Part shown: positions 41,151-64,000 of the stretch, one piece after another
Layout: every line of letters starts with the position of its first letter
Position numbering within the stretch: the stretch's first letter is position 1
Assembly: GCF_023282985.1 (NCBI RefSeq)
Contig: NZ_JAGQDC010000011.1
Coordinates: 1-64,000, forward strand
Source of the DNA: Serratia silvae
Lineage (GTDB): Bacteria; Pseudomonadota; Gammaproteobacteria; Enterobacterales; Enterobacteriaceae
DNA: 64,000 bases
Direction of reading: 5' to 3'
Made by a program: the position numbers and the translations under genes
The notes under the pieces: model-generated
Databases searched by the model: none
What the model was told of the DNA's origin: nothing
Seen by the model: the letters and a program-made list of their open reading frames with translations, nothing else

Positions 41151-41277
41151 TATGCCCTATGGATTTCGAGTTGCAGCTAGGCGACAAGCTTGCCCATCCC
41201 CAGGAGCTTACTATTGTAAGTGACTGGGGTGGGCAAGTGCAGGTAACAACGCTGCAGCTCGAAATACGACGGGTATA
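41151..41277. repeat. ERIC (IRU) element
   Basis: This 127-base element carries the core sequences of the enterobacterial repetitive intergenic consensus: CCCCAGGAGCTTAC and GTAAGTGACTGGGGTGGGC in its central hairpin, with complementary ends TATGCCC...GGGTATA. It is a non-autonomous palindromic repeat of Enterobacterales and supports the taxonomic placement. Here it lies upstream of the tail operon and could affect its leader RNA. Confidence 0.9.
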
Positions 41278-41379
41278 TCAAAATAAACTTCTCGCTACGA
41301 AATATATCAGCTAGAGTGCTATTACTGGTTTAACCCAAGGTGATGCACTCTTATCAATATGGTTAAACCTGGAGGCGCT

Positions 41380-41784: not shown

Positions 41785-41887
41785 TGTCACAATAGTGTAG
41801 TAAACATCGCTGGAGATATTCTCCAGCAAATAAACCAACCCTACCGCCATCCGGCGGTTTTTTTATATCTGAAATTGGAGAATTACC

Positions 41888-42550: not shown

Positions 42551-42627
42551 ACACGTCTATTTCCCCCTCAGGCTTGGTTGCCCGAGGGGCTGATAGCGAT
42601 GAGTTAAACCTGGAAAATGAGGAAATC

Positions 42628-42978
42628 ATGGTTGAATTTAAATTGAATCCCAAGCCGACCTTTAAGGCGGATGTCACCGTTCCGCGCCCTGGAGATGAAG
42701 ATGGCGTGCTGACTTTTACCTTCAAGCATAAAAAGCGTACCCAGCTAGAGCTGTTGGAAAAGTCTTTGCGTGAAACTCTGGAACAGCAGAGTGAAACGGG
42801 TGTTTACAGCAATGAGCCGATGGCAGATTTTTTGATGGAAATCTGTGCTGGCTGGGCTTTGCCTGACGAGTTTAATCGCGAAAACATGCTGGTGTTGTTG
42901 GATAACTACCCGCGGGCGTTTGATTCCATTGCCACTCTGTTTACCCGCGAACTGATGGCCGCACGCGGAAAAAACTGA
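42628..42978 (+). CDS. Tail assembly chaperone, G-type
   Basis: This 116-residue protein is the G equivalent. It is an acidic, helical chaperone that coats the tape measure during tail assembly. The ATG at 42628 follows GAGGA. The end of the gene contains a slippery heptamer A-AAA-AAC at 42969-42975, just before the TGA stop, so a fraction of ribosomes should shift to the -1 frame and make G-T. Confidence 0.8.
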   Translation: MVEFKLNPKPTFKADVTVPRPGDEDGVLTFTFKHKKRTQLELLEKSLRETLEQQSETGVYSNEPMADFLMEICAGWALPDEFNRENMLVLLDNYPRAFDSIATLFTRELMAARGKN

Positions 42979-43280
42979 TAGCGCTTGCCGAAGCGTTTTA
43001 TACGCCAGAGCCTGCCATTGAAGATCTCGGTGCTTTTGGCCTGAGTGCCGCCGATTATGATCCGGTGATCGTTGAAGCCTGGCCCGATATCTGGCCAGCG
43101 TTTCAGGTTTTTCAGGCCATGGGAACCCAGTGGCGCATGGGTATGCGGGGTGTCAGCGGGTTGGATTATAACTGCCTGCCCTGGCTGATGACGCTTTATG
43201 GCGTGGACGATGAGGCAAGCGCGTTCAGTGATATTCGCGTAATGGAAAGCGCAGCACTTAGGATCATTCATAGTAAATAA
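42975..43280 (+). CDS. Tail assembly chaperone extension, T part of G-T
   Basis: This frame has no strong start of its own. Entered by a -1 shift at A-AAA-AAC, it adds 101 residues to the 116-residue G protein, giving a 217-residue G-T fusion. The T part is tryptophan-rich (EAWPDIWPAFQVFQ, GVSGLDYNCLPWLMTLYG). In lambda the T part recruits tail tube protein to the tape measure. Internal GTG initiation at 43065 is a less likely alternative. Confidence 0.8.
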   Translation: MIALAEAFYTPEPAIEDLGAFGLSAADYDPVIVEAWPDIWPAFQVFQAMGTQWRMGMRGVSGLDYNCLPWLMTLYGVDDEASAFSDIRVMESAALRIIHSK

Positions 43281-43316
43281 ATACTTATACCAGCATTAAG
43301 TTGGTTGGAGGGCAGT

Positions 43317-44744: not shown

Positions 44745-44820
44745 ATCTCCTTATCAATTATCAATAGTAACAACCGCAGTCTGGCATCAGGCCTCATTAA
44801 TTGCTCCTCAATCGTTGTTT

Positions 44821-44976
44821 CCCCTCACCCCAACCCTCTCCCACAGGGAGAGGGAGCTGGTATGGCGCCGTGTTCAGGTACAGAAGTAACCTGTAACAAG
44901 GGTGATAGGAAAGACGAATGCATGATCCAATATGTGGCACGTACAGTCCCCTCTCACTAAAGGAGAGGGTGAGGGG
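44821..44976. repeat. Interspersed repeat with inverted ends inside the tail operon
   Basis: CCCCTCACCC at 44821 and GGGTGAGGGG at 44967 are inverted ends, with an internal CCCTCTCCC/GGGAGAGGG hairpin at the left. It belongs to the same family as 134-336. It fills most of the gap between the tape measure and the M gene. Confidence 0.6.
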
Positions 44977-45023
44977 TAATGTCTGGCCCTGCTGGCTGAC
45001 GGTTATTACTGTTCGGAGTCTTT

Positions 45024-45365
45024 ATGCTTATCGATACTTTCCAATGGCAAACCCAGGCCTCGCCTAGCGGTAACTTTGTCCATAACGTCAGAAGTGCGCA
45101 GTTCGGCGACGGCTATAAACAGGTCAGCAGCAACGGGCTGAACCAGGCGGTGCAGCAGTGGCAGTTGGCCTATACCGGCCATCCGGCCGTGACCCAGTCG
45201 ATGCTGGCCTTTTTAAATCAACACGTGCTCGTAGCCTTTTTCTGGACGCCGCCCAACGGCAAGAAAGCGCTATTTCGCGTCAAGTCGGATTCAATTTCCG
45301 TCACGCCGCTAGCGCGCAATGTGGAGGCATTGAGTTTTGCCTTTGAACAAGCTTTCGGCGTATAG
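45024..45365 (+). CDS. Minor tail protein, lambda gpM-like
   Basis: This 113-residue protein is the tail-tip hub subunit equivalent to lambda gpM: MLIDTFQWQTQASPSGNF, then VRSAQFGDGYKQVSSNGLN and AFFWTPPNGKKALFRVKS. It forms part of the distal tail ring to which gpL and gpJ attach. The next gene starts eight bases after its stop. Confidence 0.85.
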   Translation: MLIDTFQWQTQASPSGNFVHNVRSAQFGDGYKQVSSNGLNQAVQQWQLAYTGHPAVTQSMLAFLNQHVLVAFFWTPPNGKKALFRVKSDSISVTPLARNVEALSFAFEQAFGV

Positions 45366-45373
45366 GTGCAATC

Positions 45374-46126
45374 ATGTCATTTAACAGTCAAGTGCAAAAG
45401 CTGGCGCCAGGGGAACTGATCCAGCTGATTGAAATTGATGGCACCGCCTTTGGCGCGGCCATCATGCGCTTTCATGCGCACAATATTCCCCACACTCAGG
45501 CCGAGATCGCGGCGGCGGGCAACGATGCCCAGCGGCTGAAACCAAAATCGATCTGGTGGCAGGGAAACGAGTATGAAGCCTATCCCTACGAGATCACCGG
45601 CCTGGCAGCAACCAGCGATGGTTCGCAACCAACGCCCAGGCTCAGCGTCGCCAACCTTAGCAATCTGGTGTCTTCGTTGTGTCTGACCTTCAACGATATG
45701 GTGCAGGCGAAAGTGCGGGTACATGACACCTTTGCCAAATATCTGGATGCGGTCAACTTCCCCGAGGGAAACGCTCTGGCCGATGCTTCGCAGGAGCGGG
45801 TGCAGGTTTTCTATATCGACAGCAAAAGCACCGAAACCAACAGCGTGGTGGAGTTCCAGCTCTGTACACCGTTTGATCTGCAAGGCCAGCAATTGCCCTC
45901 GCGGCAAATTCACGGGCTTTGCACCTGGTGCATCCGGGGTTGGTACCGCAGCGGCAGAGGTTGCGATTACAGCGGCGGAGCCTGTTTTGATAAAGACGAT
46001 AAACCGATCGACGATCCGGCGTTGGACGTCTGTGGTGGCCGGGTGTCCTCCTGTAAAAAACGCTTTGGTGACGCGCAACCTCTGGCCTTTGGCGGGTTCC
46101 CAGGTTCCAACCTGTTGGGGAGGTAA
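45374..46126 (+). CDS. Minor tail protein, lambda gpL-like
   Basis: This 250-residue tail-tip protein has a beta-rich N-terminal domain and a cysteine-rich C-terminus with CTWCIRGWYRSGRGCDY and VCGGRVSSCKKRFG. Lambda gpL carries an Fe-S cluster there, and the conserved cysteines suggest the same. It links the hub to gpJ. The final TAA codon overlaps the K gene start by one base. Confidence 0.88.
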   Translation: MSFNSQVQKLAPGELIQLIEIDGTAFGAAIMRFHAHNIPHTQAEIAAAGNDAQRLKPKSIWWQGNEYEAYPYEITGLAATSDGSQPTPRLSVANLSNLVSSLCLTFNDMVQAKVRVHDTFAKYLDAVNFPEGNALADASQERVQVFYIDSKSTETNSVVEFQLCTPFDLQGQQLPSRQIHGLCTWCIRGWYRSGRGCDYSGGACFDKDDKPIDDPALDVCGGRVSSCKKRFGDAQPLAFGGFPGSNLLGR

Positions 46127-46839
46127 TGATGCAGGCTGAAATCATGCAGGCGATCTGTGAGCATGCCGCAGCGGAATATCCCAATGAGTCCTGCGGTTTT
46201 GTGGTGCAGAACGGGCGTAAGGCGCGTTATCTGCCGTGCCGCAATGTGGCGGAGAACGCGTTGGATAACTTTGTCATTTCCCCTCAGGAATATGCGCAGG
46301 CGGAGGACCAAGGCGAGATCATCCGCATCATCCATAGCCATCCTGATGTACCCGTATTGATCCCTTCGGAGATGGATCGCCTGCAGTGCGATCACTCGGG
46401 CATTGTCTGGGGCATCGTTTCGTGGCCGGAAGGAGATTACACCGAGGTTGTGCCACGCGGCGAGCGTCCGTTAGTAGGCCGTAGCTGGTTGCTGGGCCAT
46501 GCTGACTGCTGGTCATTGATCCGGGATTACTATCGCCAGGAACACGGCATCGTGCTGAATGATTACTCGGTGGAGCATGAATGGTGGATCGACGGCAAAA
46601 CCCGCCTGTATGACGATCACTGGTACGCCGAAGGGTTCCGAGAATTTCAGGGGCCGATGCGCGCGGGCGATATGATCATGATGCAGGTTTCAGCCCCGGT
46701 TACCAACCACGCGGGCATCTATCTGGGGGACGGGATGATGCTGCACCATCTGTTCGGCCAGCTCAGCCAGCGTTATCCCTACAGCGGATATTTTCAGGAG
46801 CGGACGGTACGCGTAGTCCGCCGAAAGGAGCTTCTATGA
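46126..46839 (+). CDS. Tail-tip peptidase, lambda gpK-like (JAMM plus NlpC/P60)
   Basis: This 237-residue protein has an N-terminal JAMM metallopeptidase domain (ESCGF, then HSHPDVPVLIPSEMD with the H-x-H...D zinc ligands, about 15-85). A C-terminal NlpC/P60 cysteine peptidase follows (HADCWSLIRDYY, with the histidine in NHAGIYLG, about 120-225). Lambda gpK is a tail-assembly factor; NlpC/P60 domains cut peptidoglycan stems, so a role in local wall degradation is also possible. It overlaps the I gene by four bases. Confidence 0.88.
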   Translation: MMQAEIMQAICEHAAAEYPNESCGFVVQNGRKARYLPCRNVAENALDNFVISPQEYAQAEDQGEIIRIIHSHPDVPVLIPSEMDRLQCDHSGIVWGIVSWPEGDYTEVVPRGERPLVGRSWLLGHADCWSLIRDYYRQEHGIVLNDYSVEHEWWIDGKTRLYDDHWYAEGFREFQGPMRAGDMIMMQVSAPVTNHAGIYLGDGMMLHHLFGQLSQRYPYSGYFQERTVRVVRRKELL

Positions 46840-47459
46840 TGCAAACAACAAGACTGATCCGGTTGGGTGGCCAACTGGGTAAAAAGTTCGGTAAAACCCA
46901 TCGGCTGGTGGTGGCGGATACTCGCGAAGCGCTGCGGGCGCTGTGTATCACCTTGCCCGGATTTGAGAGCTTTATGATGAATGCCCATAAAGACGGCGTG
47001 CAGTTTGCCTTCTTCAATGGCCCGCAGAATATCAGCCTAGCCGAGTTTGCCACCTCTAAAGGCAGTGCCGATATTCGCATTATGCCGGTGATCGCCGGGA
47101 GTAAAAATGCCGGGATGTTCCAGATTGTGATTGGGGTGGCGGCGCTGGTAGGGGCATTCTTCACCGCAGGCGGAACGATGGCGTATTGGGGGGCGGCATT
47201 AGCGGCTCAAAGTGCAGCGGTAACCGGTTTAACCATGATGGGAGCTTCGATGGTGCTGGGTGGCGTAATGCAACTGATGACGCCACAACCGGATTTCGGC
47301 ATGTCCTCTTCCCAGTCGGTAGAAAACAAACCGTCCTATGCCTTTGGCTCACCGGTCAACACCACGGCGCAGGGTTACCCGGTGCCGGTGCTGTACGGCG
47401 AACGAGAAATCGGTGGCGCGGTGATTTCCGCCGGTATTTACGCCGAAAATCAGCAATAA
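46836..47459 (+). CDS. Tail assembly protein, lambda gpI-like
   Basis: This 207-residue protein has a ubiquitin-like N-terminal part (LIRLGGQLGKKFGKTHRL) and a glycine/alanine-rich hydrophobic middle (VIGVAALVGAFFTAGG and AQSAAVTGLTMMGASMVLGG). It ends with YPVPVLYGEREIGGAVISAGIY. This matches lambda gpI, a tail-tip assembly factor. It overlaps gpK and is separated from J by an ERIC remnant. Confidence 0.88.
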   Translation: MMQTTRLIRLGGQLGKKFGKTHRLVVADTREALRALCITLPGFESFMMNAHKDGVQFAFFNGPQNISLAEFATSKGSADIRIMPVIAGSKNAGMFQIVIGVAALVGAFFTAGGTMAYWGAALAAQSAAVTGLTMMGASMVLGGVMQLMTPQPDFGMSSSQSVENKPSYAFGSPVNTTAQGYPVPVLYGEREIGGAVISAGIYAENQQ

Positions 47460-47480
47460 TCCTTCTCTATTGGTCGTTTT

Positions 47481-47521
47481 ATACCCTAAGAATTTCAAGC
47501 TGCAGCTAGGCGACGGGTATA
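47481..47521. repeat. Internally deleted ERIC element
   Basis: These 41 bases match the first 32 and last 11 bases of the ERIC at 41151-41277 (ATACCC...TTGAAGCTGCAGCTAGGCGAC-type left end fused to CGACGGGTATA). About 85 internal bases are missing. It sits between the I and J genes of the tail operon. Confidence 0.75.
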
Positions 47522-47545
47522 ACGGCCTTTTTTTATGGGCGCAAT

Positions 47546-50500
47546 ATGACAAAGAAACTTATTCATGGGCGCAAGGGCGGTGGTGGATCGGCGCATACGC
47601 CGGTTGAAGCTCCCGATGATTTGCAGTCCAACGCTAAAATCAAAATCCTGCTGGCGCTGTCTGAAGGGGAGATTGCCGGTGGGTTAGACGGCACCCGCAT
47701 CCTGCTCGACGGCACCCCGGTGCATAATCCCGATGGCAGTGAAAACTTTACCGGCCTGAAGTGGGAGGTGCGTAATGGCACTCAGACTCAGGATTATATC
47801 CAGGGCATGCCGGATGTAGAGTCTGAAACACCGGTCAACGTCAAGTTGACCACCACCAACGTCTGGACCAAAACCTTCACCCGAACTGATATCGACGCGC
47901 TGCGCATTCGCATGGGCTTCCCGGCGCTGTTCCAGCAGGAAGATAACGGCGATATGAACGGTTCGCTGGTGGAATACCTGATTGAGCTTTCCACCGATGG
48001 CGGAGCCTATAAAACCGTGGTCACCGGAACGCTAAAGGGCAAAACCACCAGCCTGTACGAGCGCGATCACCGGATTAATTTGCCAAAAGCGACCACCAGC
48101 TGGACGCTGCGTATCAAGCGCATCACCCCAGACTCAACCAGCAGCAAGCTGGTAAACACTACCCAGATCCAGACCTACACCGAGATCGTGGACGCCAAGT
48201 TCCGCTATCCCAACACCGCCTTGCTGTTTATCGAGTTTGATGCCCAGCAGTTCAGCTCGGTACCGAAAATTACGCTCAAGCCAAAGGGCAAAATCATTCG
48301 CGTCCCGGCCAACTACGATCCGCTGGCGCGGACGTATAGCGGCAATTGGGATGGGAATTTTAAATGGGCTTGGAGCAACAACCCGGCCTGGGTGTTTTAC
48401 GATATCGCGTTGGACAAGAATTACGGCTTAGGCAACCGGGTTACCGCCGCTGAGATCGACAAATGGGGGCTATACAGCATCGCGCAGTATTGCGATGAGC
48501 TGATTGATGACGGTTTGGGGGGCGGCGGTAAAGAGCCGCGTTTCCTGTGCGATGTGTATATCCAGTCACAGCAGGATGCTTACACCGTATTACGTGATAT
48601 CGCCGCCATCTTCCGCGGTATCACCTACTGGGGCAACGACCAGCTATTTGCCTACGCGGATATGCCGCGCGATGTGGATTTCGTTTATTCGCGGGCCAAC
48701 GTCATCGGTGGCGAATTTGCCTATGCGTCGGGTTCTTACAAGAACCGCTATACCTCGGCGCTGGTGAAATGGGGCGATCCGGCCAACCATTATGCCGACG
48801 CAGTGGAAGCGGCTTACGATAACGAACTGGTGAAGCGCTACGGCGTTAACCAGACAGAAATCACCGCTATCGGTTGTACGCGGCGCACTGAGGCTCACCG
48901 CCGTGGGCGCTGGGCGATCCTGAGTAACGCCAAAGATCGTACCGTCAGTTTTACCGTCGGGTTGGACGGCAATATCCCGCTACCAGCTAGGATCATCGGC
49001 ATTGCAGATGCCATGCTGGCAGGCAAGACCAACGGCGGGCGCATCCATTCCGCGCAGGATCGTGTAGTGGTGCTGGATCGTGAAGTGGCGTTTGGTAAAG
49101 GCGATCGCCTGATCGTCAATCTGCCAGACGGCACGGCGCAGACTCGCACCATCGCCAGTATCGCGGCAGACAAGCTTACGGTGACGCTGACTGCCCCGTT
49201 CCGCCAGCAACCGGAGGCTGAAGCAGCCTGGAGTATCGACTCCGACAGCCTGGCGATCCAGCAGTTCCGCGTGGTGTCGGTCCAGTCCAACGATGATGGC
49301 ACCTTCGCCATTAACGCCGTTGAGCACGATCCGGATAAATACGCCTTTATCGATAACGGCATCCGCCTGGATGCTCCACCAATTACCGTTACGCCACCAG
49401 GAGCGATGCCTGCTCCGGTGAATATCGCTATCTCGCGCTACGACTATGTCAGCCAGGGGATTAACGTTGCCTCAATGCGTGTGCAGTGGCGTGCCGTTGC
49501 TGGCGCGGTGGCCTATGAGGCCCAGTGGCGTAAAGATAACGGCAACTGGGTAAATGTGGGCTCGACGCCTTCGCTCGGGTTTGATGTTAACGGCATTTAT
49601 GCCGGTAACTACGACGTGCGGGTACGAGCGGTGAATGCGGTGGGCGTTTCCTCGCAGTGGGGCCATGCCGAGCCGAGCTATCTGGCAGGAAAAGCAGGTT
49701 CGCCGCCCAATATTGTCTCGTTGGCGGCAACCAAGGACGTCGTGTTTGGTATCCAGCTTTCCTGGAGATTTGGCCAGAACTCTGCCGATGGCCTGAAAAC
49801 CACCCTGATGGTAGCCAGCCGGGCGGATTTCGCCGACGAACGTTTACTGGCCGATGTGCCTTATCCACAGCATCGCTATGACATGCAGGGCCTGCGTGCC
49901 GGTCAGGTGCTGTATTTCCGTGCGGCCTTTACCGACAAAACCGGCAACCAGTCCGACTGGAGCGAGTTTGTACGCGGGATGGCTTCGGACAGCGCGGACG
50001 TGGTGCTGGCGCAAATTGCGCAAAGCATTACCGAGACCGAACTGGGCAAAGAGCTGTTGGAGAAGATCAACAGCCTGCCTTCGGATCAGAACGTCCAGGA
50101 TCTGGCCGAGAAGATCGCCCAGGCACAGGCCGATATCGAGGCGAACAGGGATGCGCTGCAAGGGGATGTCGATACCCTGCAAGCAGCGCTGAACAAGGTT
50201 AACGCCGAGCTGGCGGGTAGCAATGCCGATCTGAGCAATGCTGTCGATGTGCTGCAACAGGATTTGACGCAGCTGGGCAAAGCCGCCATCGAAAACAGCC
50301 TGGCCATCGAGCATAACCACCAAAAACTCTCCCAGGTCCAGGAGGCGCTGAATAACGATATCAAGGACGTGCGCGGGGAAATTGACAGCACCCGGGCCAG
50401 CTTGGCGCGTGCAGATGTCGAACTGCAAGCCAAGGTCGATGTCCTTACCGGTGGCACCAACGCAGCAATGGCCGAGGTTGCTTCGCAGATCACCCAATTG

Positions 50501-53329
50501 CAGGACGGCGACCAGCAGCTGGCCAGCAAGCTTGACGTAGTGATTGCCAAAGCAGAGGGGAACACCGCGCAAATCGCGCAGGAGAAAGCGGCGCGTGTTG
50601 ATGCTGATGGGGCGTTAGCCAAGGATATTAGCTCGGTGAAAGCCACGGCGGATAATCAGCAGGGTTTGATTATCAAATTGGAGCAGGCGCAGGCCGATGC
50701 CGATTCGGCACTGGCTAAAGTGGAGTCCAACGTATCCGCTAATACCAAGACGATCGGCAGCAATAAGCTTGAGCAGGATAAGGTTAACTCGCAGGTCACG
50801 CAGAAAACCGAAGCGCTGGTCGATCAGCAGAAAACGCAGGGCCAGCAGCTCAGCGGGCTGACATCTGAGTTTAGCGAAAACCGAGCGGAGGTGACCCAAC
50901 AGCTGAAAACGCTGGCGGCGACAGACTTGGCTCAGGCCTTGCAGATCTCCGGTTTGCAGGCCAGCACGGGCAGTAACACTGCGGCTATCCAGGCAGAGGC
51001 GAAATCCCGTGCCGATGCCGACGGTGCGCTGAGCCAACGGGTTGACGTGATCCAGGCGAGCAGCCAGGAAAACACGGCGGCTATCACCCGCCTTGGCATC
51101 GCGCAAACCGAAGCCGAAAGCAGTACGGCCAGCCTGCAACAGGCTTTGGAGGCCACGGCCAAGGCGAATATCGAACAGGCGCTTAAGCAGGATAACGATG
51201 TTCAACGTCTGGACGAGAGCAGCGCCCGGTTAACCACGGCACAAACCGTTTTCGCCGATCGGCAGCAGGCGCAGGTCCAGCAGATCACGCAACTGGATGC
51301 GAACTTTGGTGATGTGTCTGCGCAGTTGCAGCAAGAGATCACCACCAGGGCCAGCGAGACCGGTGCACTGTCGCAACGGTTTGACCATTTGAGCGCAGAT
51401 GTCGGCAGTAATCAGGCCGAGGTAAATCAGCGTTTGCAGGCCCTGGTGGATAGCGGCAGTGCTCAAGCGTCGTTAATTACCGGCCTGGGGGCAGCCACTG
51501 GCGAAAATAAAGCGGCGATCGCCGCTGAATCGCAAGCGCGGACCACGGCGGATGACGCGTTATCTCGGCAATTGAGTTCGCTGGATTCCACCGTTGGGCA
51601 AAACACGGCTGCTATCAACGATCGGCTGCAGACGTTGACCAATCAGGACTCGGCCATGGCGGAGCAGATTGGTTCATTAACGGCGACCTCTGGCGAAAAC
51701 AGCGCGGCGATCGGCGAGCTGAAGCAGGCACAAAGCGACTTGGCCGGTTCGCAGGCCTCGCTCAGCAGCTCGCTTGAAGCCATTGCCAAGGCGGATATTG
51801 AGCAGTCGTTAAAGCAGGCGGAAGACGTTATCAGCAATGATGTGGTCACTGCATCGATCAAGACCCAGCAGAACGTAATGGCGGACGATCAGCGCGCCCA
51901 GGCGCAGCAGATCACCGAATTACGCGCGAGCTTTGGTGATGTTGATGCGCGCTTGATGACGGAACAGACGGTGCGTGCGGAAGCTGACAAAGCGTTATCC
52001 CAGCAGGTGACAGCGCTGGCAGGCACCGTGGGGGACAACAATGCCCAACTCAATCAGCAACTGCAGGTGCTGGTGGATACGGACAGCGCCCAGGCCAAGC
52101 TGATTAACGACCTGACTAGCAGAGCAGGGGCGAATGAGACCTCGGTTACCGCTCTGAGTCAAACGCTAACCGATAGCAATAGCGCGACGGCTCAGCAAAT
52201 TGGTGCTCTGCAATCCGCTACCGGTGACAATACGTCGGCGATTACCTCGCTGTCGAAAACCGTGACCGATAACCAAAAATCAACTTCACAGCAAATAACC
52301 AACTTATCTACCACCGTAGGGGGAAATACTGCAGAGATTGAAAAGCGAGGACAAACTGTTTTTGATATGGCAGGGGTTGGTAAGGCCACATTTTCAATCA
52401 AAACCGGCGTTAATTTTAAAGGCCAGTATCACAGTGCAGGAATGGCCATTGGAGTCGAAACGCGCGCGGATGGAACCGTTGATAGGCAAGTTTTATTTGA
52501 TGCCAATAGATTTGCTTTCCTTGATAGTTCTACATCCAAGGTTTCGGTACCATTCGCCATCCAAAATGGACAGGCGTTTATTAACTCTGCATTTATTGCT
52601 GACGGAACGATTACTAATGCAAAAATTGGTGGTTATATATCTTCAGATAATTACAATTGGGATAATAAAACCGGGTGGGTAATAAGTAAAACAGGTGATG
52701 CGGCATTTAATAGTGTGACTGTTCGTGGGCATATCGAGGCATGGAGTGGCTATTTTAATGGCGCGATATATGCTGATAGTGGTGTTTTGAATGATGTTAC
52801 CATTAATGAATCCTGCACCATAAAGGGGACCTTAGATGCGAGTAATATAACTGGTGATATATACAATACTCAGTCTGGAGGCATTTATGTAACGCCAGTA
52901 ACTCCTTTTTCATCTGGTTTTAGTTGGTCTGGTCAGTCTGGAGATCATATTTTATGGAGTATTATCGGTGAAAACTTCGATAGAGTAATGGACACTAATG
53001 TGACGGTACATGCTAGCAGTTCTAGGCGTCAATATTTCTCACTTGTCCTTGTTAGTCCTGGATATGCAGATACGCTCCTCGCTTTTAAAGACACGGGGAA
53101 TGATGGTAATAATGGGCCAATGACTTATTTGATTGCTGACGTAAGGCTGCCAAGGATTGGCAGGGAACAACAGCATAAGTTAATAATGAGAATTGGTGAG
53201 TCTAGAAGTGGCACGGTAACAATAAGTACGCCGATCCTTAGTGGGAGCGGTAATTCAGCTGTTTACGCTTCGCCAAAGCTTCAAGTTTATAAAGCTGGAC
53301 GAATAATCGCTACAAGTGGACCGATTTAA
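47546..53329 (+). CDS. Host-specificity protein J, unusually long
   Basis: This 1927-residue tail-tip protein is far longer than the 1132 of lambda J. The N-terminal 600 residues are the conserved hub (GGSAHTPVEAPDDLQSNAKI at the start). Fibronectin-like modules occupy about 615-830. A long coiled-coil-like region (about 825-1600) contains repeats such as EATAKANIEQALKQ and EAIAKADIEQSLKQ 209 residues apart. A DUF1983-like part (about 1625-1740, YHSAGMAIGVE and VPFAIQNGQ) and an A+T-rich end follow. It contacts the host receptor. Confidence 0.88.
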   Translation: MTKKLIHGRKGGGGSAHTPVEAPDDLQSNAKIKILLALSEGEIAGGLDGTRILLDGTPVHNPDGSENFTGLKWEVRNGTQTQDYIQGMPDVESETPVNVKLTTTNVWTKTFTRTDIDALRIRMGFPALFQQEDNGDMNGSLVEYLIELSTDGGAYKTVVTGTLKGKTTSLYERDHRINLPKATTSWTLRIKRITPDSTSSKLVNTTQIQTYTEIVDAKFRYPNTALLFIEFDAQQFSSVPKITLKPKGKIIRVPANYDPLARTYSGNWDGNFKWAWSNNPAWVFYDIALDKNYGLGNRVTAAEIDKWGLYSIAQYCDELIDDGLGGGGKEPRFLCDVYIQSQQDAYTVLRDIAAIFRGITYWGNDQLFAYADMPRDVDFVYSRANVIGGEFAYASGSYKNRYTSALVKWGDPANHYADAVEAAYDNELVKRYGVNQTEITAIGCTRRTEAHRRGRWAILSNAKDRTVSFTVGLDGNIPLPARIIGIADAMLAGKTNGGRIHSAQDRVVVLDREVAFGKGDRLIVNLPDGTAQTRTIASIAADKLTVTLTAPFRQQPEAEAAWSIDSDSLAIQQFRVVSVQSNDDGTFAINAVEHDPDKYAFIDNGIRLDAPPITVTPPGAMPAPVNIAISRYDYVSQGINVASMRVQWRAVAGAVAYEAQWRKDNGNWVNVGSTPSLGFDVNGIYAGNYDVRVRAVNAVGVSSQWGHAEPSYLAGKAGSPPNIVSLAATKDVVFGIQLSWRFGQNSADGLKTTLMVASRADFADERLLADVPYPQHRYDMQGLRAGQVLYFRAAFTDKTGNQSDWSEFVRGMASDSADVVLAQIAQSITETELGKELLEKINSLPSDQNVQDLAEKIAQAQADIEANRDALQGDVDTLQAALNKVNAELAGSNADLSNAVDVLQQDLTQLGKAAIENSLAIEHNHQKLSQVQEALNNDIKDVRGEIDSTRASLARADVELQAKVDVLTGGTNAAMAEVASQITQLQDGDQQLASKLDVVIAKAEGNTAQIAQEKAARVDADGALAKDISSVKATADNQQGLIIKLEQAQADADSALAKVESNVSANTKTIGSNKLEQDKVNSQVTQKTEALVDQQKTQGQQLSGLTSEFSENRAEVTQQLKTLAATDLAQALQISGLQASTGSNTAAIQAEAKSRADADGALSQRVDVIQASSQENTAAITRLGIAQTEAESSTASLQQALEATAKANIEQALKQDNDVQRLDESSARLTTAQTVFADRQQAQVQQITQLDANFGDVSAQLQQEITTRASETGALSQRFDHLSADVGSNQAEVNQRLQALVDSGSAQASLITGLGAATGENKAAIAAESQARTTADDALSRQLSSLDSTVGQNTAAINDRLQTLTNQDSAMAEQIGSLTATSGENSAAIGELKQAQSDLAGSQASLSSSLEAIAKADIEQSLKQAEDVISNDVVTASIKTQQNVMADDQRAQAQQITELRASFGDVDARLMTEQTVRAEADKALSQQVTALAGTVGDNNAQLNQQLQVLVDTDSAQAKLINDLTSRAGANETSVTALSQTLTDSNSATAQQIGALQSATGDNTSAITSLSKTVTDNQKSTSQQITNLSTTVGGNTAEIEKRGQTVFDMAGVGKATFSIKTGVNFKGQYHSAGMAIGVETRADGTVDRQVLFDANRFAFLDSSTSKVSVPFAIQNGQAFINSAFIADGTITNAKIGGYISSDNYNWDNKTGWVISKTGDAAFNSVTVRGHIEAWSGYFNGAIYADSGVLNDVTINESCTIKGTLDASNITGDIYNTQSGGIYVTPVTPFSSGFSWSGQSGDHILWSIIGENFDRVMDTNVTVHASSSRRQYFSLVLVSPGYADTLLAFKDTGNDGNNGPMTYLIADVRLPRIGREQQHKLIMRIGESRSGTVTISTPILSGSGNSAVYASPKLQVYKAGRIIATSGPI

Positions 53330-53377
53330 ATGAACATCCCTCCGCACTGCGGAATTTTTTATTTGGAGTAAATATCT

Positions 53378-55291
53378 ATGTGGTACAAAACAGGCACGAT
53401 CAATTTAATCGCTAATAACGCCACCGTAACGGGTACCGGTACCGCGTGGGCCGATGCCAAGTTTGGCGTGATGCCAGGGATGATTTTGCTGGCACCGGAC
53501 AATAAGCTGTATGAAGTTAAACAGGTGAATAGCAATACCTCGCTGACCCTTAACAGCAATTATACAGGTTCAACGGCCAGCGGGCAGAGCTATGCGATTA
53601 TCACCACTTATGAAGGTGATATCAGCCAATTCTCCGCTCGCTTTGCGGCAATGCTGACCTTCTTCCAAGGCAGCCGCAATGATACGGTGAGCTGGTTTAC
53701 TGGCTCCGGGGACATGACCTTCACCAAGGATGATGGTACAAAGCTGACCGTTCCGACGCTGGCTAAAATTCAGTCAGACTATTTGTCCAGGTCATCAACG
53801 GCAAATCAACATGTAGCCGGATCTGTCTCGTTTAGCCAGCCTACGGGGCTTTCTCTCAGCACTTCGCCTGGTTTTTTACCTCGAGCACAAGGTGCTTGGG
53901 TTGGTTGGAATCGAATGCAAGCAACCCCAGGCTATGCAGATGGCGCAACTGAATTTATGAACCATAAAGGGTCTCGGCCTGGTGGCTTTAACTTTTGGAA
54001 CTCCGATGGTAAAACAGCAGATATTTTAACCATTATTGGCGCAACAGGGAATATAACCACAAAAGGCCGTTTGTCGTCAATTGGCGATCAACACATGCAA
54101 ACTGATCCTGCTACGGCAAATTTGTTGCTACGTTTCAAAGATATTGATGGTGTAGAGAAAAGCTCTATTTATTCGCAAACGGACACTGGGCAACTTAATA
54201 TTAGATGGAATGGTACAGCCTATACGATGGCTTACCGCACAGATGGTTTAATTTCGGTGCCAAAGGGCTATGTTATATCAACAGCAATGGCAACTCCTCA
54301 AGAGGTTGCTGATATTGTCGGGAATAATAGTGCGCCAATGGCATTTCGTGGAGCGGACACGGCAAGCTTTAATGCTCCAAATAATTATAGTATAGGGACT
54401 TGGTACGGTTTTTCTGTTGTTCCTACAATTGGTTCATATTTAGGGGAAGGGGTAGAGCAAGGCAAGCCAGTGTTCTATGTTAATGCACGCCAAGGAACAG
54501 CATATGTATTAAATAATATGTATATTGGTTCAACACCTGTCGTGAAGGTTGGAGATTTCGGATTAGGTGTTACAAATAGCACTGAGGTTTTTGATTTTAC
54601 TAAAAATTCATCTCCTGCGGGTATACATCGTGCTATTGAAAGCCAAAATGGTGCACCGGCAGGTGGCTCTGCAATGGTTGGGATGACGGCCTCTATTTCC
54701 GGGGCTTACTCGGGGCATATCTATACATCTCATGGAGCTACACCAGGGGCAATAAAACTATACGCCGGTTGGACACGTTCCAATGGAACATTAGACTTTG
54801 TTTCAGCGTGGCATAATGGCAATACTACAGTTGATTCAAATGGTTTCATTAAGAAAGCATCACCAATCGCCCGTCTCTCCAGCAACCCAGAGAAAATGTC
54901 CGATGAATACCTGGATGGCTTTACCCTGTCCGGGCTGGCGGCGGTAAATGACGAGGCTGCGGGCGTTACCGCTGAGCGAGTCTCTGTCGGCATATATAAA
55001 GTGACGGGGTCGTTAGGTTTCGCGCTGGAAGGCTGGAACATCGAAGTCCCACAAGACGTCAACGGTAACCGCCTATGCTTCGTCGCCACCGAAGCGGCCG
55101 AAGACGGTACGATCACGGTTAAAGTCAGCAAACGCCGCTTTGATATTGATACCGCAGCAATCGTTGCCGGGGAGCCGATGGATATTCCAGAAGGGCGCTG
55201 GATCGATCTGCGCTTGGAGATGCCGCCGGTTGAAGAAGCTCAGAGCGAGCCAGAACCGGAAGGCCACGAAGGTGAAATGGCGAGCGAGTAA
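53378..55291 (+). CDS. Phage side tail fibre protein
   Basis: This 637-residue fibre has an N-terminal attachment domain (MWYKTGTINLIANNATVTG to about residue 130) like those of many siphophage and enteric prophage fibres. An A+T-rich variable middle (about 135-500) follows, then a conserved G+C-rich C-terminus (SSNPEKMSDEYLDGF and DIPEGRWIDLRLEMPP). The middle part probably determines the surface receptor. It is the last gene of the operon and is followed by a terminator. No chaperone gene is adjacent. Confidence 0.8.
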   Translation: MWYKTGTINLIANNATVTGTGTAWADAKFGVMPGMILLAPDNKLYEVKQVNSNTSLTLNSNYTGSTASGQSYAIITTYEGDISQFSARFAAMLTFFQGSRNDTVSWFTGSGDMTFTKDDGTKLTVPTLAKIQSDYLSRSSTANQHVAGSVSFSQPTGLSLSTSPGFLPRAQGAWVGWNRMQATPGYADGATEFMNHKGSRPGGFNFWNSDGKTADILTIIGATGNITTKGRLSSIGDQHMQTDPATANLLLRFKDIDGVEKSSIYSQTDTGQLNIRWNGTAYTMAYRTDGLISVPKGYVISTAMATPQEVADIVGNNSAPMAFRGADTASFNAPNNYSIGTWYGFSVVPTIGSYLGEGVEQGKPVFYVNARQGTAYVLNNMYIGSTPVVKVGDFGLGVTNSTEVFDFTKNSSPAGIHRAIESQNGAPAGGSAMVGMTASISGAYSGHIYTSHGATPGAIKLYAGWTRSNGTLDFVSAWHNGNTTVDSNGFIKKASPIARLSSNPEKMSDEYLDGFTLSGLAAVNDEAAGVTAERVSVGIYKVTGSLGFALEGWNIEVPQDVNGNRLCFVATEAAEDGTITVKVSKRRFDIDTAAIVAGEPMDIPEGRWIDLRLEMPPVEEAQSEPEPEGHEGEMASE

Positions 55292-58785: not shown

Positions 58786-60054
58786 CTAGTATCGAGACTT
58801 GCGATCATGAGAAGACGCCCATATCCCTATACTTTCATCAATTTGATCCATGAGATCGCCGTTCGCATCAACATCTGCAACGAGGGCTACGCTGACGAAA
58901 CCCGGTTCATTCGTAACGGCCGGCAGTCGCCACGCTTCGTACCGCGTAACACCTGCTTTTGTTCCTGGCGGTGGCGTGGGATTAGCCCCCCAAGATGCTG
59001 CGAGCTCAGGATTGGTTCTCTGCAATTCGTCGAAATCAATTGTCCAGCGATGATCAGATACCGTGCCGAACTCAGGAATAATGCGGGGAAGAAGATAGTC
59101 TCGAACAATATTGTCGAGGTCATGAAGTACAGCCGGTGGTGTCGTCGGATCGGGGCGAATAACAACTTCAAGAGCCACTGCGATGACAAGGGGATTGATG
59201 AGCCAATCCCAGCGTTTCTTGAAGGCCTTAATTTCGTTCAACACTTTCTGCTTGAACATGGTTGAACTACCGCTAGTAATCGGCAGTTCTCCGACTTGGA
59301 GGCGGAGTTTCGACTTGCCTAAAAGCTCCGCCCATATTTCTTTCCCAAGGCCAGTCGCGGTGGCTTGAGGGCGGCCATACATCGAGCCCAGTACAGGAAT
59401 TGTGGCGCCGCTGCTCTTGAGCAAGGCGTGTTGTGCGTACCATCTCGTCATCTTCAGGTAGGCATTGTATAGATCATTGCCAAGATTCTGACGTTTGTAT
59501 GCCTCGTTGTCTTTGAGATCGCGGAATGTCTTGATCCAGTCTGCTTCGTGGTCTTGCTCATAGAGATAATCGATGTTCGTTTCAATTGAGTACCTTGCCT
59601 CGGTCGCAAGTTCAAGATCATCAAGCATTGCAGTGAATGGTCGTGCTTCAATTCGGATAGACGGGTAAGGTTCTCCGTGCCGACAAGAAACGGAAAGTGC
59701 CTGGATTTGCCGATCGTCTTTATACAAGAGATGCTGGCGTTGCCATGACACACTCGGGCGTCGCGTTCCGAGAAGGTCTAGCAGGTTTTTGGCTATTGTG
59801 TGTGCTTGGGGAGCGTTTTTGCTTGTCGTCCCCAGCTCAATTTTTAGAGCAACGCCACCTGTAAAGGTCGATCGTTTCACTAAGGTTAGCTGTTCGGCTA
59901 TAGCCTGCTGGAATTTATCCCGATCAGCCTCAGGCATTCTTTTCGATTGAGGTTCAATATCATCAATATAAATATGTACGCGTCGTTTCTTCCTCGACTG
60001 ATAGCGGGCGTGAGCGCCAGCATCACTGCTCATGAAATCCTTGAATCTGCGCAT
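58786..60054 (-). CDS. RusA-like nuclease-fold protein, possible double domain
   Basis: This 422-residue protein has two regions that look like the RusA Holliday-junction resolvase fold. The first (about 30-150) has HTIAKNLLDLLG, then LLYKDDRQIQAL and PSIRIEARP. The second (about 320-400) has HDLDNIVRDYLLPRIIPEF. A helical middle (about 150-300) separates them. The order of aspartates (DNI and KDDRQ) is as in RusA but split between copies, so activity is uncertain. AGAGGT precedes the ATG at 60054. Its island setting suggests a role in mobile-element biology or defence. Confidence 0.45.
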   Translation of the reverse strand: MRRFKDFMSSDAGAHARYQSRKKRRVHIYIDDIEPQSKRMPEADRDKFQQAIAEQLTLVKRSTFTGGVALKIELGTTSKNAPQAHTIAKNLLDLLGTRRPSVSWQRQHLLYKDDRQIQALSVSCRHGEPYPSIRIEARPFTAMLDDLELATEARYSIETNIDYLYEQDHEADWIKTFRDLKDNEAYKRQNLGNDLYNAYLKMTRWYAQHALLKSSGATIPVLGSMYGRPQATATGLGKEIWAELLGKSKLRLQVGELPITSGSSTMFKQKVLNEIKAFKKRWDWLINPLVIAVALEVVIRPDPTTPPAVLHDLDNIVRDYLLPRIIPEFGTVSDHRWTIDFDELQRTNPELAASWGANPTPPPGTKAGVTRYEAWRLPAVTNEPGFVSVALVADVDANGDLMDQIDESIGIWASSHDRKSRY

Positions 60055-61063
60055 GATACCTCTAATCACGTTTCTTCGTTCAACTTTGCCATGTTCAAAT
60101 AGTTGTTTCGATGTTCTCTATGGCCGGAAATTGTCACTTTACGATCGGTACGGCAGGGTGGCAAGATGCCTGAGATTTTTGGACTTAATCAGGATATTTC
60201 AGACTTCCCAGGGCAATAATTTGACTAGTCCTGGTATCACTGGCGACCTATTTGGTGAAGCTGGGTCTTATCGCCACCCAATCCTAACTGACTGATTGTT
60301 TAGGTAACATGACTAGAAGGTATGGCTCACGGTATGGCACAGTGGTTGCAATGGTTTAGGATTTACAGTAACCATGAAGTTTTTTCGGACGACAGTTCAG
60401 TTTCCATTTCAGGAGCTGAATTGAAATACCATGATTGGGATGGAGTGTTAAGCTAGCGGTGCGTGCTATAAAAACGTCTCCAGCCGAAACAAAGGGCAAC
60501 TGCAAGCATGGTTATGCTACCTCGTTTGTATCCGGTGGTGACTCACCGGGACTGTGTGGACTCGTGTGGTAGCGCCCTATTATGTGAATATTTTTCATGA
60601 TGGCAACAAGGGCTTGTTGTGTGGTGGTGAGCTATAACTGATTGTAAAACAGACAATTTTATCTATTGGCTTATATTGCCCATTATTGCCTTCTATTGAC
60701 CCACATAGCCAAAATTACTTATTACAAAAATCAGAATAACTATTATCTGATAGATAAAAATGTGATTAACAGCGGGTTAGATGGCTAGCCAGAAAAAGGT
60801 CGATTTTGGGCAGGGTGAACAGTAGTGAACAGTGAGTGATGAGTTTTACAGTAACTGTTCACTACTTTACTTATTGATTTAACTCTATTTTTTATTAAAG
60901 TGAACAGTAGTGAATAGTTTATATAAAAACTAAAATCTCGGTGGTGGTTTTCTGGGCAATTTCACGGGGTGTTGTCCTGCCGGTGATCCAACGGGGATTG
61001 ATAGCGATGTTGTGCGGTTATCAACAGAATGGCGACACATTGACGAACACCGGAGACACCACA
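60055..61063. other. Non-coding region with iterons before the Psu-like gene
   Basis: These 1009 bases hold no convincing gene. The first 400 are featureless. From about 60630 the sequence becomes A+T-rich and contains an array of iterons (60814-60918). The stretch just upstream of 61064 contains GGAG eight bases before the Psu-like start. Confidence 0.45.
60814..60918. repeat. Array of (A/G)GTGAACAGT iterons, P4-type origin-like
   Basis: Five copies of a 10-base unit occur: 60814-60823 and 60824-60833 in direct tandem; 60854-60863 inverted; 60899-60908 and 60909-60918 direct, the last with one mismatch. The tandem pairs have a 10-base period, so they face the same side of the helix. P4 alpha protein binds iterons built around GGTGAACA-like sequence at ori and crr, so this may be a P4-like replication region. 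Confidence 0.65.
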
Positions 61064-61786
61064 ATGAGTACCACGCTACCCAAGTCCATCACCCAAAAGC
61101 TGCAAGCGCTGCGTGATGCCCGCGCCGCCCACGACAAAAACGCCCAGGAGTTAACGGAGGTCGTAACAGGCATCGCCCGTTGCCATCAACAGAAGAAAGA
61201 CACCGAGGTGGAAAGTCATGAAGCGGAAAGCCAATGGCGTACCCTGTTCCGCAAACTGCGTGGGGAAATGACCCCGGAGTTGCAAGCGCAGCACCACAGC
61301 CGGATCTCCAAGCGGGAGCTGACCAAAGAGTTCGACGGCCTGATAGAAGAAATGGAGGTGGATAAAATGTATCTCCACCTCTGTTGTGGAACGACAGCCC
61401 CCAAGCTGGTTGACGCGCACCGAGAGGCTTTGAACGCCTTTGCCGGGCACGCAATGAGCCAGGCCGTGGACGCCCTGGGGAAAGCGCTCTTGAGCGCCGA
61501 TGTTGTCAATGCCTGCTCCCTGGCAAAGAAAGCCTACAGTGTTTACCACGATAACCCGATGAGAGTGATTGAACAGAGTGTATTGGGGGCGCTGACTGCT
61601 CATGTTATTACGGCTACGGCGCAAAAGAACATTGAGCACCCGGTGCTGAGTGAAATCGGACTGACACAGCCCGAGGAAACGGGGGTATTACCGGCGCTGC
61701 GCGACAGCCCAGTCAAACGCTGGCAGTTGGCAACGGAAATAGCGGAAAAACGCAAGAAATTTAAGGAACGGGGGATTAAATCATGA
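61064..61786 (+). CDS. Psu-like polarity suppression / capsid decoration protein of P4-type satellite
   Basis: This 240-residue helical protein has a basic coiled-coil start (SITQKLQALRDARAAHDKN) and a mid helix AVDALGKALLSADVVNACS. These resemble P4 Psu, which blocks Rho and decorates satellite capsids. Similarity is by eye and moderate; the protein is longer than P4 Psu (190). The ATG at 61064 is chosen because it follows GGAG and upstream frame sequence looks non-coding. It overlaps the Ogr/Delta gene by four bases. Confidence 0.55.
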   Translation: MSTTLPKSITQKLQALRDARAAHDKNAQELTEVVTGIARCHQQKKDTEVESHEAESQWRTLFRKLRGEMTPELQAQHHSRISKRELTKEFDGLIEEMEVDKMYLHLCCGTTAPKLVDAHREALNAFAGHAMSQAVDALGKALLSADVVNACSLAKKAYSVYHDNPMRVIEQSVLGALTAHVITATAQKNIEHPVLSEIGLTQPEETGVLPALRDSPVKRWQLATEIAEKRKKFKERGIKS

Positions 61787-62022
61787 TGCGTTGTCCCTTT
61801 TGCCGCAGTGGTTCACATACCCGCACCAGCCGGTATTTAACCGAACAGACCAAAGAGGCGTATTACCAGTGCCAGAATATCGACTGTTCCAGCACCTTTA
61901 AAACGCGGGAAAGTATTGAGCATGTTATCCGACGGCCCTCGCCACCGGAAACTATTCCGGCACCGCCCCCACCGGAACGCCGAACGTTAAACCGTTACGG
62001 CAACAATAATCACCTGCACTGA
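61783..62022 (+). CDS. Ogr/Delta-like zinc-finger late-gene activator
   Basis: This 79-residue protein has the Ogr/Delta zinc-finger pattern: CPFCRSGSHTRTSR, then YYQCQNIDCSSTF, with four cysteines binding zinc. P2 Ogr and P4 Delta activate late promoters of helper and satellite. A proline-rich C-terminus (PSPPETIPAPPPPER) is added. The start overlaps the Psu-like gene (ATGATG). A terminator follows. Confidence 0.85.
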   Translation: MMRCPFCRSGSHTRTSRYLTEQTKEAYYQCQNIDCSSTFKTRESIEHVIRRPSPPETIPAPPPPERRTLNRYGNNNHLH

Positions 62023-62032
62023 TTAACCATCC

Positions 62033-62061
62033 CCGCATCTTTTACCAAGATGCGGTTTTTT
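62033..62061 (+). terminator. Terminator downstream of the Ogr/Delta gene
   Basis: A perfect nine-base stem (CCGCATCTT / AAGATGCGG) with a five-base loop is followed by six T residues. Confidence 0.9.
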
Positions 62062-62349
62062 GCCTTCCACCGTTCTCCCGAAACCCGCCTTTTCTCTGGC
62101 TAGCCTGCCTCAAACTGCGCGTGCATGCATAGAGTGCATGATTTTGCATGAATCCCCTTGTCCTCAAAACAGACGAAACTCCGCGCCACAAGGGCTTACA
62201 TTGCCTCTACATCATGCATGAAATGTGCATGATAAAGTCAGAGCGCGTAGGCGAGGGAGTATTGCGCGCGCGCAGCATTGGAGGATGTTTTATCATTACT
62301 TTTGATCAATAATCGGTCCATAGAGAACATTAACTTTTTGTCAACGAGG
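62062..62349. promoter_or_regulatory. Satellite junction region with clustered TGCATG motifs
   Basis: No gene is present. TGCATG occurs at 62122, 62135, 62145, 62215 and 62226, with 10-13 base steps within each group. A CCCTTGTG-type inverted repeat (about 62156-62194) separates the groups. GGCGAGG at 62250 resembles the start of the P2/P4 cohesive end. In P4 the cos site lies just past psu, so a packaging site is possible here; the A+T-rich last 60 bases hold the promoter of the next gene. Confidence 0.4.
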
Positions 62350-64000
62350 ATGGAAACTGTGCAAAATCATGTTGAGCCATTTTTAGCAGATATTTTAGAT
62401 AAGCTTTGGTCAAATCATGCCGCCGTACTTGTCGGGGCTGGATTTAGTAAAAATGCCAAACCAAATAGCGCAAATTGTTTAACGTTCCCTTCTTGGGAGG
62501 AATTAGGTGATGTCTTCTACAGGAAAATTCATTGTAATGATAATAATGGAAAGTATTTAAATGTTCTGAAGTTAGCTGATGAAGTTGAAGCTGCATTTGG
62601 TCGAGGTAGTCTGGAGCAAATTTTAATTAACAATATACCAGATAAAGATTACGAGCCTTCAGATCTTCATGTTAAATTACTAAACCTTCCATGGGTGGAT
62701 GTATTTACAACGAATTATGACACTTTACTTGAACGTGCATGTACATCGGTAATATCACATAAGTATGATGTGGTTTTAACTAAAGCTGACCTTATTAACG
62801 CCGAACGGCCTAGGATAATTAAGCTTCATGGTAGTTTTCCCTCAGAACGGCCTTTTATCATAACTGAAGAGGATTATAGAAAATACCCATTTGATTTCTC
62901 CCCTTTCGTGAATACAGTACAGCAATCTTTAATAGAAAATACGTTGTGTCTAATTGGTTTTTCTGGTGACGACCCTAATTTTCTAAAATGGATTGGTTGG
63001 ATTAGAGATAATTTAGGTGCTCATAATTCCCCGAAAATATATTTAATAGGTGTTTTTAACTTAAGTAACGCACAAAGTAAATTACTGGAAAAAAGAAATG
63101 TCACAGTTATAGATCTAGGAGGATGTGATGGTGTAAACCATAATCATTATTTAGGGATGGAGTTTTTCATCAAGAGTATGATGAAAGGTAAAATGAAAAG
63201 AGATAATTTAAGTTGGCCTTCAAGTGAAACTGTTGAGCGTTACTCTATTCGTGATGATAGTTCAATTTCCATTTCAAAAATTTCGAAATTAGATAATGTC
63301 TGGAGGGGGTCACGGTTAAGATATCCAGGTTGGTGTATTCTTCCAGAGGAGAATAGGAACACTCTTTGGAGTTTTACAAATGGTTGGGTTAATTTTCTAG
63401 CATCACCTATTGAGATTGAGGACGAGTTGGAGTTCTCTATCATATTTGAAGTTCTGTGGCGCTTAGATAAAGCTTTGTGTCCGCTTATAGATGGGTTATC
63501 TCTTCGAGTTGAAAATATAATCAATAGAAATTGGGGTTTATTAAGTGGTGAGATGAAATTTATAACTGGAAATAGAATTGGTACATTTAATGAAGCAAGG
63601 GAAAAACTGATATTTCTATGTAATATGTTATTGCGATTTTATAGGCAAGAGGATAATCGAGTTGGCTGGGAGCGACTGAGTCAAGATATAACCGTTCATT
63701 ATGAGTTGCTTTCACCAGAGGAAAAGGCGCTATATAATTACGAGAGATCTCTCTTTTCTTTATTTAAACTTGACATTAAGAGTGTGAATTATTGCTTAAG
63801 TAATTGGGAACGAAATGAGGCTCTCCCATTCTATGAGGCAAAAAGGGCTGGTATATTGGCTGAGTTAGGGAAAGTTGATGAGGCCATATCTATTGTTGAA
63901 AAATCATTAAACACCATTAGGAAGAGGCTTTCCCTTAAACCTATTACTATTAATTATGCTGATGTGTCGCAAGAGGCATATGTGATGCTTCTTGTTCAAT
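62350..64000 (+). CDS. SIR2-domain protein with helical C-terminus, incomplete
   Basis: The frame runs from the ATG at 62350 (after GAGG) to the window end, at least 550 residues, with no stop. The N-terminal SIR2 domain has all key motifs: GAGFS (29-33), TTNYD (119-123), catalytic histidine in LHG (159) and GFSGDDPN (202-209). The long C-terminus is helical and ends in TPR-like sequence (AKRAGILAELGKVDEAISI). SIR2 defence proteins deplete NAD+ after phage infection. The gene is strongly A+T-rich and lies in a P4-type hotspot position. The 3' end and any partners lie outside. Confidence 0.85.
   Translation, partial: METVQNHVEPFLADILDKLWSNHAAVLVGAGFSKNAKPNSANCLTFPSWEELGDVFYRKIHCNDNNGKYLNVLKLADEVEAAFGRGSLEQILINNIPDKDYEPSDLHVKLLNLPWVDVFTTNYDTLLERACTSVISHKYDVVLTKADLINAERPRIIKLHGSFPSERPFIITEEDYRKYPFDFSPFVNTVQQSLIENTLCLIGFSGDDPNFLKWIGWIRDNLGAHNSPKIYLIGVFNLSNAQSKLLEKRNVTVIDLGGCDGVNHNHYLGMEFFIKSMMKGKMKRDNLSWPSSETVERYSIRDDSSISISKISKLDNVWRGSRLRYPGWCILPEENRNTLWSFTNGWVNFLASPIEIEDELEFSIIFEVLWRLDKALCPLIDGLSLRVENIINRNWGLLSGEMKFITGNRIGTFNEAREKLIFLCNMLLRFYRQEDNRVGWERLSQDITVHYELLSPEEKALYNYERSLFSLFKLDIKSVNYCLSNWERNEALPFYEAKRAGILAELGKVDEAISIVEKSLNTIRKRLSLKPITINYADVSQEAYVMLLVQ

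Follow-up and report, generated by a model that had tools for sequence, protein, structure and literature searches.

The window, the stretch of 64,000 nucleotides that was analysed, ends inside an open reading frame that begins with a SIR2 domain, and the question raised by this locus is what the complete gene encodes, which element carries it and what would trigger its product. The window corresponds to positions 1-64000 of the 167,683-base Serratia silvae contig NZ_JAGQDC010000011.1 (C3), and coordinates above 64000 lie outside it. The open-reading-frame list leaves the frame open at position 64000, and the contig sequence completes it: the gene runs from an ATG at C3:62350 to a stop at C3:66000 and encodes 1216 residues with no internal stop. 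The incomplete SIR2 gene proposed by the initial annotation is therefore a real and complete gene. Its features within the window are as follows.

62350..64000, + strand: first 550 codons of dsr2 (remainder to C3:66000), an apparently single-gene SIR2-HEAT/armadillo defence protein, assigned from profile matches
62350..63204, + strand: predicted SIR2 NADase domain, residues 1-285 (Pfam SIR2_2, 1.3e-23; conservation; fold match to the SIR2 domains of ThsA and DSR2)
62713-62715 and 62827-62829, + strand: codons of the catalytic Asn122 and His160, within the SIR2 domain
Protein residues 29-33 and 203-210: SIR2 motifs GAGFS and GFSGDDPN, with TTNYD (containing N122) and KLHGS (containing H160) between them

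An alternative TTG start at 62278 would give a protein of 1240 residues, and the ATG at 62350 agrees with the start of the Pectobacterium homologue. Counted from this ATG, the catalytic histidine first placed at residue 159 is residue 160. The description of a complete set of SIR2 motifs is borne out, as is the A+T-rich composition (33.9% G+C in dsr2 vs 52.7% in the window). The dsr2 stop is separated by 101 bases from an integrase gene (C3:66102-67313), so dsr2 looks like a single-gene system, which narrows the original choice between a single- and a multi-gene system.

The protein matches the PADLOC Dsr2 profile (PDLC02184) with 1408.8 bits over residues 3-1213 of 1216. The NCBIfam model NF041819 (anti-phage defense-associated sirtuin Dsr2) scores 1368.3 bits over residues 6-1211, which is 32 bits under its curated cut-off of 1400 bits (98%); the Pectobacterium peruviense relative (G308) clears this cut-off with 1526.2 bits. 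Pfam detects SIR2_2 only. With scores near 1400 bits along the full length, a chance match is excluded. The gene is assigned, with a probability of about 0.85, as dsr2, defence-associated sirtuin 2 in the PADLOC and NF041819 sense, with an NADase effector and in the context of a P4-type satellite. The novelty implied at the outset does not stand: the family is already named and has profile models, and its E. coli members are annotated dsr2 by NCBI. The analysis thus settles the unfinished gene at the window edge as an intact defence gene of a known family in a known kind of slot.

Other SIR2 systems were considered as assignments and rejected. The SIR2 domain matches ThsA of Thoeris, but the remainder of the protein forms a solenoid, and the element holds no recognised partner gene. 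STAND/Avs5 proteins give only weak structural matches (Z ~20, rmsd 27-29 Å). The two-gene SIR2 systems with HerA or pAgo were rejected because dsr2 and the integrase gene leave no space for a further gene between them and the neighbours on the opposite side are delta and sid.

The Dsr2 profile matches 32 of the 392 genomes of the host's family (E <= 0.001), and two of these matches are full-length, in the window genome and in P. peruviense (NZ_LXFV01000005.1). A scan of named genomes recovered at least 593 stretches and at least 386 relatives, with the best 80 loci ranging from Proteobacteria to Methanosarcina. A distant search of 5426 complete E. coli genomes with the Pectobacterium gene, which more divergent copies would escape, returned five genomes. 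Four carry a copy spanning at least 80% of the query that is annotated dsr2 (e.g. NZ_CP030939.1), and the fifth retains the last 5% of dsr2 beside the same integrase at tRNA-Leu. The distant E. coli search with the window gene returned four genomes with 11% of the query covered, and the near search with the window DNA returned no E. coli match. Matches occurred in 170 plasmid records and two phage records, none of which spans 80% of the query. E. coli Dsr2 shares 77% identity with Pectobacterium Dsr2 and 40% with the window protein, which is about equally distant (~40% identity) from its homologues in E. coli, Pectobacterium and G394, the last a congener described below. None of the papers listed in literature searches on DSR2 deals, by title or abstract, with Dsr2 in satellites.

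Conservation was examined in an alignment of 60 sequences consisting of the window protein and 59 open frames of at least 1150 residues out of the best 80 loci. N122 is kept in 60/60 sequences and H160 in 59/60. Mean identity of the 59 homologues to the window protein falls from 53.7% in the SIR2 domain to 29.0% at residues 286-600, 24.9% at 601-900 and 20.4% at 901-1200, a sequence gradient that reads as a kept effector joined to a drifting putative sensor. The AF2 model of residues 1-1200 built from this alignment (pLDDT 86.3, pTM 0.72) has the SIR2 domain at ~1-285 followed by a long, almost entirely helical solenoid. The C-terminus had been described as long and helical or TPR-like; the helical part of this description is correct, and the TPR part is replaced by armadillo/HEAT repeats, which the last part of the family's sequence profile matches. 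Folded alone, residues 601-1216 gave pLDDT 88.4 and pTM 0.86, and the structure search of the C-terminus proposed in the initial annotation returned generic HEAT/armadillo proteins. Importin-beta, CAND1 and designed armadillo proteins match this model at Z 9-12, values that helical repeats often reach, and no DSR2 appears among the 50 matches listed by either structure-search program.

The full-length model behaves differently from its C-terminal half. Foldseek against the PDB ranks DSR2 chains at positions 1-47, the best with E 1.3e-14 over 1166 columns. The VIA alignment to full DSR2 has Z 29.4 with 658 residues aligned, pairs model residues 4-906 with chain residues 22-872 and is collinear through the HEAT part; the SIR2 domain of DSR2 alone gives Z 29.3, so the full chain brings no gain. 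Published domain limits for DSR2 (HTH 301-400, helix bundle 410-547, HEAT 548-858, C-terminal domain 859-1005; PMC11263360) place the end of the aligned region close to where HEAT stops. The window protein continues for ~310 residues after position 906, against 133 after DSR2 residue 872.

Bacillus subtilis DSR2 (PDB 8wkx, 8wyb), a sensor of the SPR tail tube, has the N-terminal SIR2 domain, helical middle and HEAT solenoid in common with the window protein. It is shorter, at 1005 vs 1216 residues, and the C-terminal solenoid is longer in the window protein. Its active-site pair is N133/H171 where the window protein has N122/H160, with a spacing of 38 in both, and PMC11087589 describes N133 and H171 as required in DSR2 and conserved in ThsA. 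According to PMC10981675 and PMC11087589, tail tube protein in its monomeric form attaches to the C-terminal sensor of DSR2 and activates a tetramer. The profile of the 60 sequences matches B. subtilis DSR2 at residues 26-298 (SIR2) only, with 55.8 bits, and found no sequence relation outside SIR2; it scores the Thoeris effector ThsA (7uxt) higher, at 69.8 bits. ThsA likewise has the SIR2 domain in common (Z ~27 over 267 residues) but ends in a SLOG domain where the window protein has its long solenoid. Judged by sequence, the name DSR2 joins two families, and the many solved structures of B. subtilis DSR2 cannot simply be carried over to the window protein for this reason.

The gene lies in an element with the following parts.

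60249..60265, + strand: candidate attL; 16/17 bases match the ssrA 3' end at the other end of the element, and the left boundary is otherwise unproven
60495..62150, + strand: satellite backbone that matches the much fuller satellite of congener G394 at 92% DNA identity; 62150 is the left edge of a swapped dsr2 cassette
60815..60919, + strand: P4 ori type-1-like iterons, four GTGAACAGT copies (three +, one -) and one GTGAATAGT, upstream of sid as in P4
61064..61786, + strand: Sid-like protein, 240 residues (capsid size determination in P4; X51522 annotation); 28.7% identity to P4 Sid by blastp, E 3e-23, nearly full length
61783..62022, + strand: Ogr/Delta-like zinc-finger protein, 79 residues (Pfam PF04606, 1.7e-20; blastp to P4 delta ~8e-10); overlaps the sid stop as P4 delta does
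62250..62269, + strand: degenerate remnant at the place of a P2/P4-type cos, GGCGAGG followed by altered sequence
C3:66102-67313, strand opposite to dsr2: P4-type tyrosine integrase, 35% identity to P4 Int, E 1.7e-84
C3:67508-67871: ssrA (tmRNA), ~195 bp from the integrase gene

The gene past ssrA was recognised as what we take to be smpB. Extension to the right, proposed with the original reading, thus yielded the whole gene, a P4-type integrase gene and ssrA. The right flank, with its integrase gene and ssrA, supports the reading of a P4-type satellite whose cargo slot holds a SIR2 defence gene. Of the two neighbours named initially as Psu-like and Ogr/Delta-like, the second is confirmed and the first is corrected to Sid: the best E to P4 Psu for the 61064-61786 protein is 0.4 vs 3e-23 to P4 Sid. 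No P4 Psu match at E <= 0.01 was found in C3:1-77000, in L004 (C74:216001-236000, a second locus of the same genome) or in loci L131-L135. PHROG 6165, which the window Sid-like protein matches, carries the name 'Psu-like', and NC_001609.1 likewise names 9595-10314 Psu-like where X51522 annotates sid; a search by the name psu may consequently return sid.

The arrangement agrees with the P4 psu-int hotspot, for which Rousset et al. 2022 (PMC9122126) place defence cargo just before int and mention SIR2 and Septu cargos. Compared with that account, the window copy lacks psu, has Sid-like and Ogr-sized Delta-like genes before the cargo and has lost alpha and cI. P4-like satellites are also reported at tmRNA in E. 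coli (hotspot #9; PMC10121019), and the window case is in a different host. In the flanks fetched from five congeners (G273, G392, G337, G393 and G394; L131, L145-L148), an integrase related to P4 Int stands beside ssrA in all five, and ssrA is a strong integration hotspot in these congeners and the window genome. Neither of two pattern searches, run with 33 and 25 bases from the ssrA end, detected an exact attL in the window. The left boundary is unproven because all four relatives compared for it have another P4-type integrase beside ssrA and left synteny is seen in G392 only, up to C3:57678. A 427-residue protein with no Pfam or PADLOC match is encoded at window 58786-60069 (- strand), between the G392-conserved DNA and the satellite remnant.

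The satellite at ssrA in congener G394 has int, a gene for a 1207-residue Dsr2, delta, sid, ORF88, cI, ORF106 and alpha (59% identity to P4 alpha). No psu was found in it, and its contig ends before any left attachment site. DNA identity between the window element and G394 is 92% over C3:60495-62150 and C3:66143-71612, the latter covering int, ssrA and the chromosome beyond. Between these blocks the DNA aligns only partly and the two Dsr2 proteins are 41% identical. The dsr2 cassette has therefore been replaced by another allele on a near-identical backbone, with swap edges between delta and the cos region on the left and within the last codons of int on the right. Two sister species thus show a precise exchange of Dsr2 alleles.

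A third version of the backbone is present in the same genome on contig C74, beside tRNA-Sec, with 95-98% DNA identity to the window in two long matching pieces. It keeps the ori type-1-like iterons, and its cargo is Septu, with PtuB whole and PtuA split in two frames. The element occupies 5407-10155 of L004, with an internal deletion in sid and alpha reduced to ~40 residues. Near its left end, L004 4322-5323 encodes a 333-residue protein with hydrophobic stretches noted by eye and no Pfam or PADLOC match, and this region is possibly a second cargo slot. The two Dsr2 alleles and the Septu version of the same backbone form a natural set for mapping sensor recognition.

Comparison with G394 shows that the window element is a deletion derivative and not an intact satellite. 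ORF88, cI, ORF106 and alpha, which all lie to the left of sid in G394, are missing. The cos core is altered in the window element and looks intact in the C74 and G394 elements (17/19 bases) and in Pectobacterium (16/19). A search of the whole genome with P4 alpha found only the 41-residue remnant on C74 and a 76-residue match (42% identity) in a 675-residue frame on contig C52. The C52 frame could be the primase of another element, in which case replication help in trans is possible. A P2-type capsid gene, also located on C52, points to a present or former P2-like prophage. The window element is probably the immobile remnant of a P4-type satellite fixed in the chromosome, given the loss of alpha, cI and the canonical cos, and dsr2 is kept whole within it. 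An autonomous lineage of alpha-less mini-satellites, to which the C74 element without most of its alpha would also belong, was considered; this idea is weakened because G394 retains alpha and cI, and deletions are the simpler account.

Dsr2 is carried by satellites elsewhere. The gene stands beside a P4-type int in P. peruviense and in two IMG/VR contigs (L152, L153), which encode P4 alpha, a P4-type integrase and full-length Dsr2. In each of the three full-length E. coli loci inspected, out of four, dsr2 is flanked by an Ogr/Delta-like gene on one side and a P4-type int (93% identity to P4 Int) on the other, at tRNA-Leu, together with alpha (73% to P4), cI, ORF88, ORF106 and Sid-like and Psu-like genes. 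The E. coli proteins (PDLC02184/NF041819) have the same full-length match and domain order as the window protein, and the same gene position between Ogr/Delta and integrase; the sites differ, with E. coli dsr2 at leuX with psu and the window gene at ssrA in a degenerate satellite without psu. In the wider family, a home-made profile from five integrases of this type found an integrase in 5/80 loci, a lower bound because many loci are incomplete, and on this survey Dsr2 cannot generally be called satellite-borne.

A 66-row tree groups five satellite-borne Dsr2 proteins in one clade (SH-aLRT 100) in which the window protein branches first, and a quicker tree of the N-terminal 600 residues (80 rows) recovers the same clade with support 99. 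Both trees were built without E. coli rows. From the best 80 loci, 14 shorter frames entered the N-terminal tree only and seven loci without a usable frame entered neither; five of the 14 IMG/VR loci had long frames and entered the trees. All five members probably come from one host order, so host kinship explains the clade equally well, which speaks against taking it as evidence of a special satellite lineage. Neither the gene family nor the type of slot is new, and the find is largely expected. The analysis adds the full extent of the gene, relabels the Psu-like neighbour as Sid, and documents both the decay of the satellite and the exchange of alleles; it also cautions that two sequence families share the name DSR2.

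In the preferred reading, dsr2 by itself forms the cargo of a P4-type phage satellite inserted at the ssrA 3' end, and its product would be inactive in the uninfected cell. Once infection begins, a freshly synthesised structural protein of the phage, probably from its tail, would bind the C-terminal HEAT/armadillo solenoid and activate the N-terminal SIR2 domains to hydrolyse NAD+ through N122/H160, so that the infected cell would stop before progeny release. The satellite would have carried dsr2 as protection against phages competing with its helper; in the window genome it has decayed, with the defence gene retained whole. NADase activity is likely, given the intact residues and the analogy with DSR2 and ThsA, and expression and the abortive outcome are presumed. 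For the trigger, the leading candidate is a structural protein of the phage, and the odds that it is the tail tube are about even. The tail tube is proposed by analogy only, because sequence similarity to DSR2 is confined to SIR2, DSR2 is absent among the matches listed for the C-terminal half and the full chain adds nothing to the SIR2 Z-score. The first two of these points also favour a different sensor in the same family with the same NADase effector, whose solenoid would recognise a portal or assembly protein, some other part of the virion, or a host process that the phage disturbs. The longer C-terminal part past the aligned region and the high variability of that region (mean identity 20% vs 54% in SIR2) point the same way, whereas the first rank of DSR2 for the full-length model and the collinearity through the HEAT part favour a tail-tube sensor. 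A cue other than the tail tube has somewhat less than an even chance of being correct, and it overlaps with the preferred reading, whose tail-tube part is itself so evenly balanced.

The presumed loss of satellite mobility and regulation also raises the case that dsr2 is an intact passenger that is silent or inactive. Besides the missing alpha, cI, ORF88, ORF106 and canonical cos, the sole purine-rich ribosome-binding candidate found by eye abuts the ATG. However, the frame has stayed open over 1216 codons and retains its catalytic residues, while satellite genes next to it have been lost, in contrast to the Septu cargo of the sister element, where PtuA is split, and a silent or inactive gene is considered unlikely. 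SIR2 domains are also present in metabolic and regulatory deacetylases and in stress NADases, and the protein could in principle be such an enzyme with no defence role. Its SIR2 type matches the ThsA and DSR2 NADases, and the gene sits in a satellite cargo slot that holds another dsr2 allele or Septu on the same backbone, which make this reading very improbable.

The preferred reading can be extended, tentatively, to a long-standing lineage of Dsr2 in Enterobacterales P4 satellites. The effector would be kept and the solenoid sensor repeatedly replaced by allele swaps; the sensor would be tuned to the tail proteins of competitors, blind to those of the P2-like helper and tolerant of the host's own tail tube. 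As a whole this extension is rather unlikely. The window also holds a lambda-type tail-only locus at 40602-55291, apparently either a flexible (F-type) tailocin or the remains of a prophage. No capsid, terminase or integrase was found among the frames scanned in it. Its genes include those for a Q-like antiterminator, a tail terminator, minor tail proteins, a 1927-residue J-like protein, a fibre, a short tape-measure protein (475 residues) and the major tail (tube) protein at 41888-42550. This siphoviral tail tube gene lies ~20 kb from dsr2, and the proposed satellite lineage requires tolerance of the host's own tail tube for this reason.
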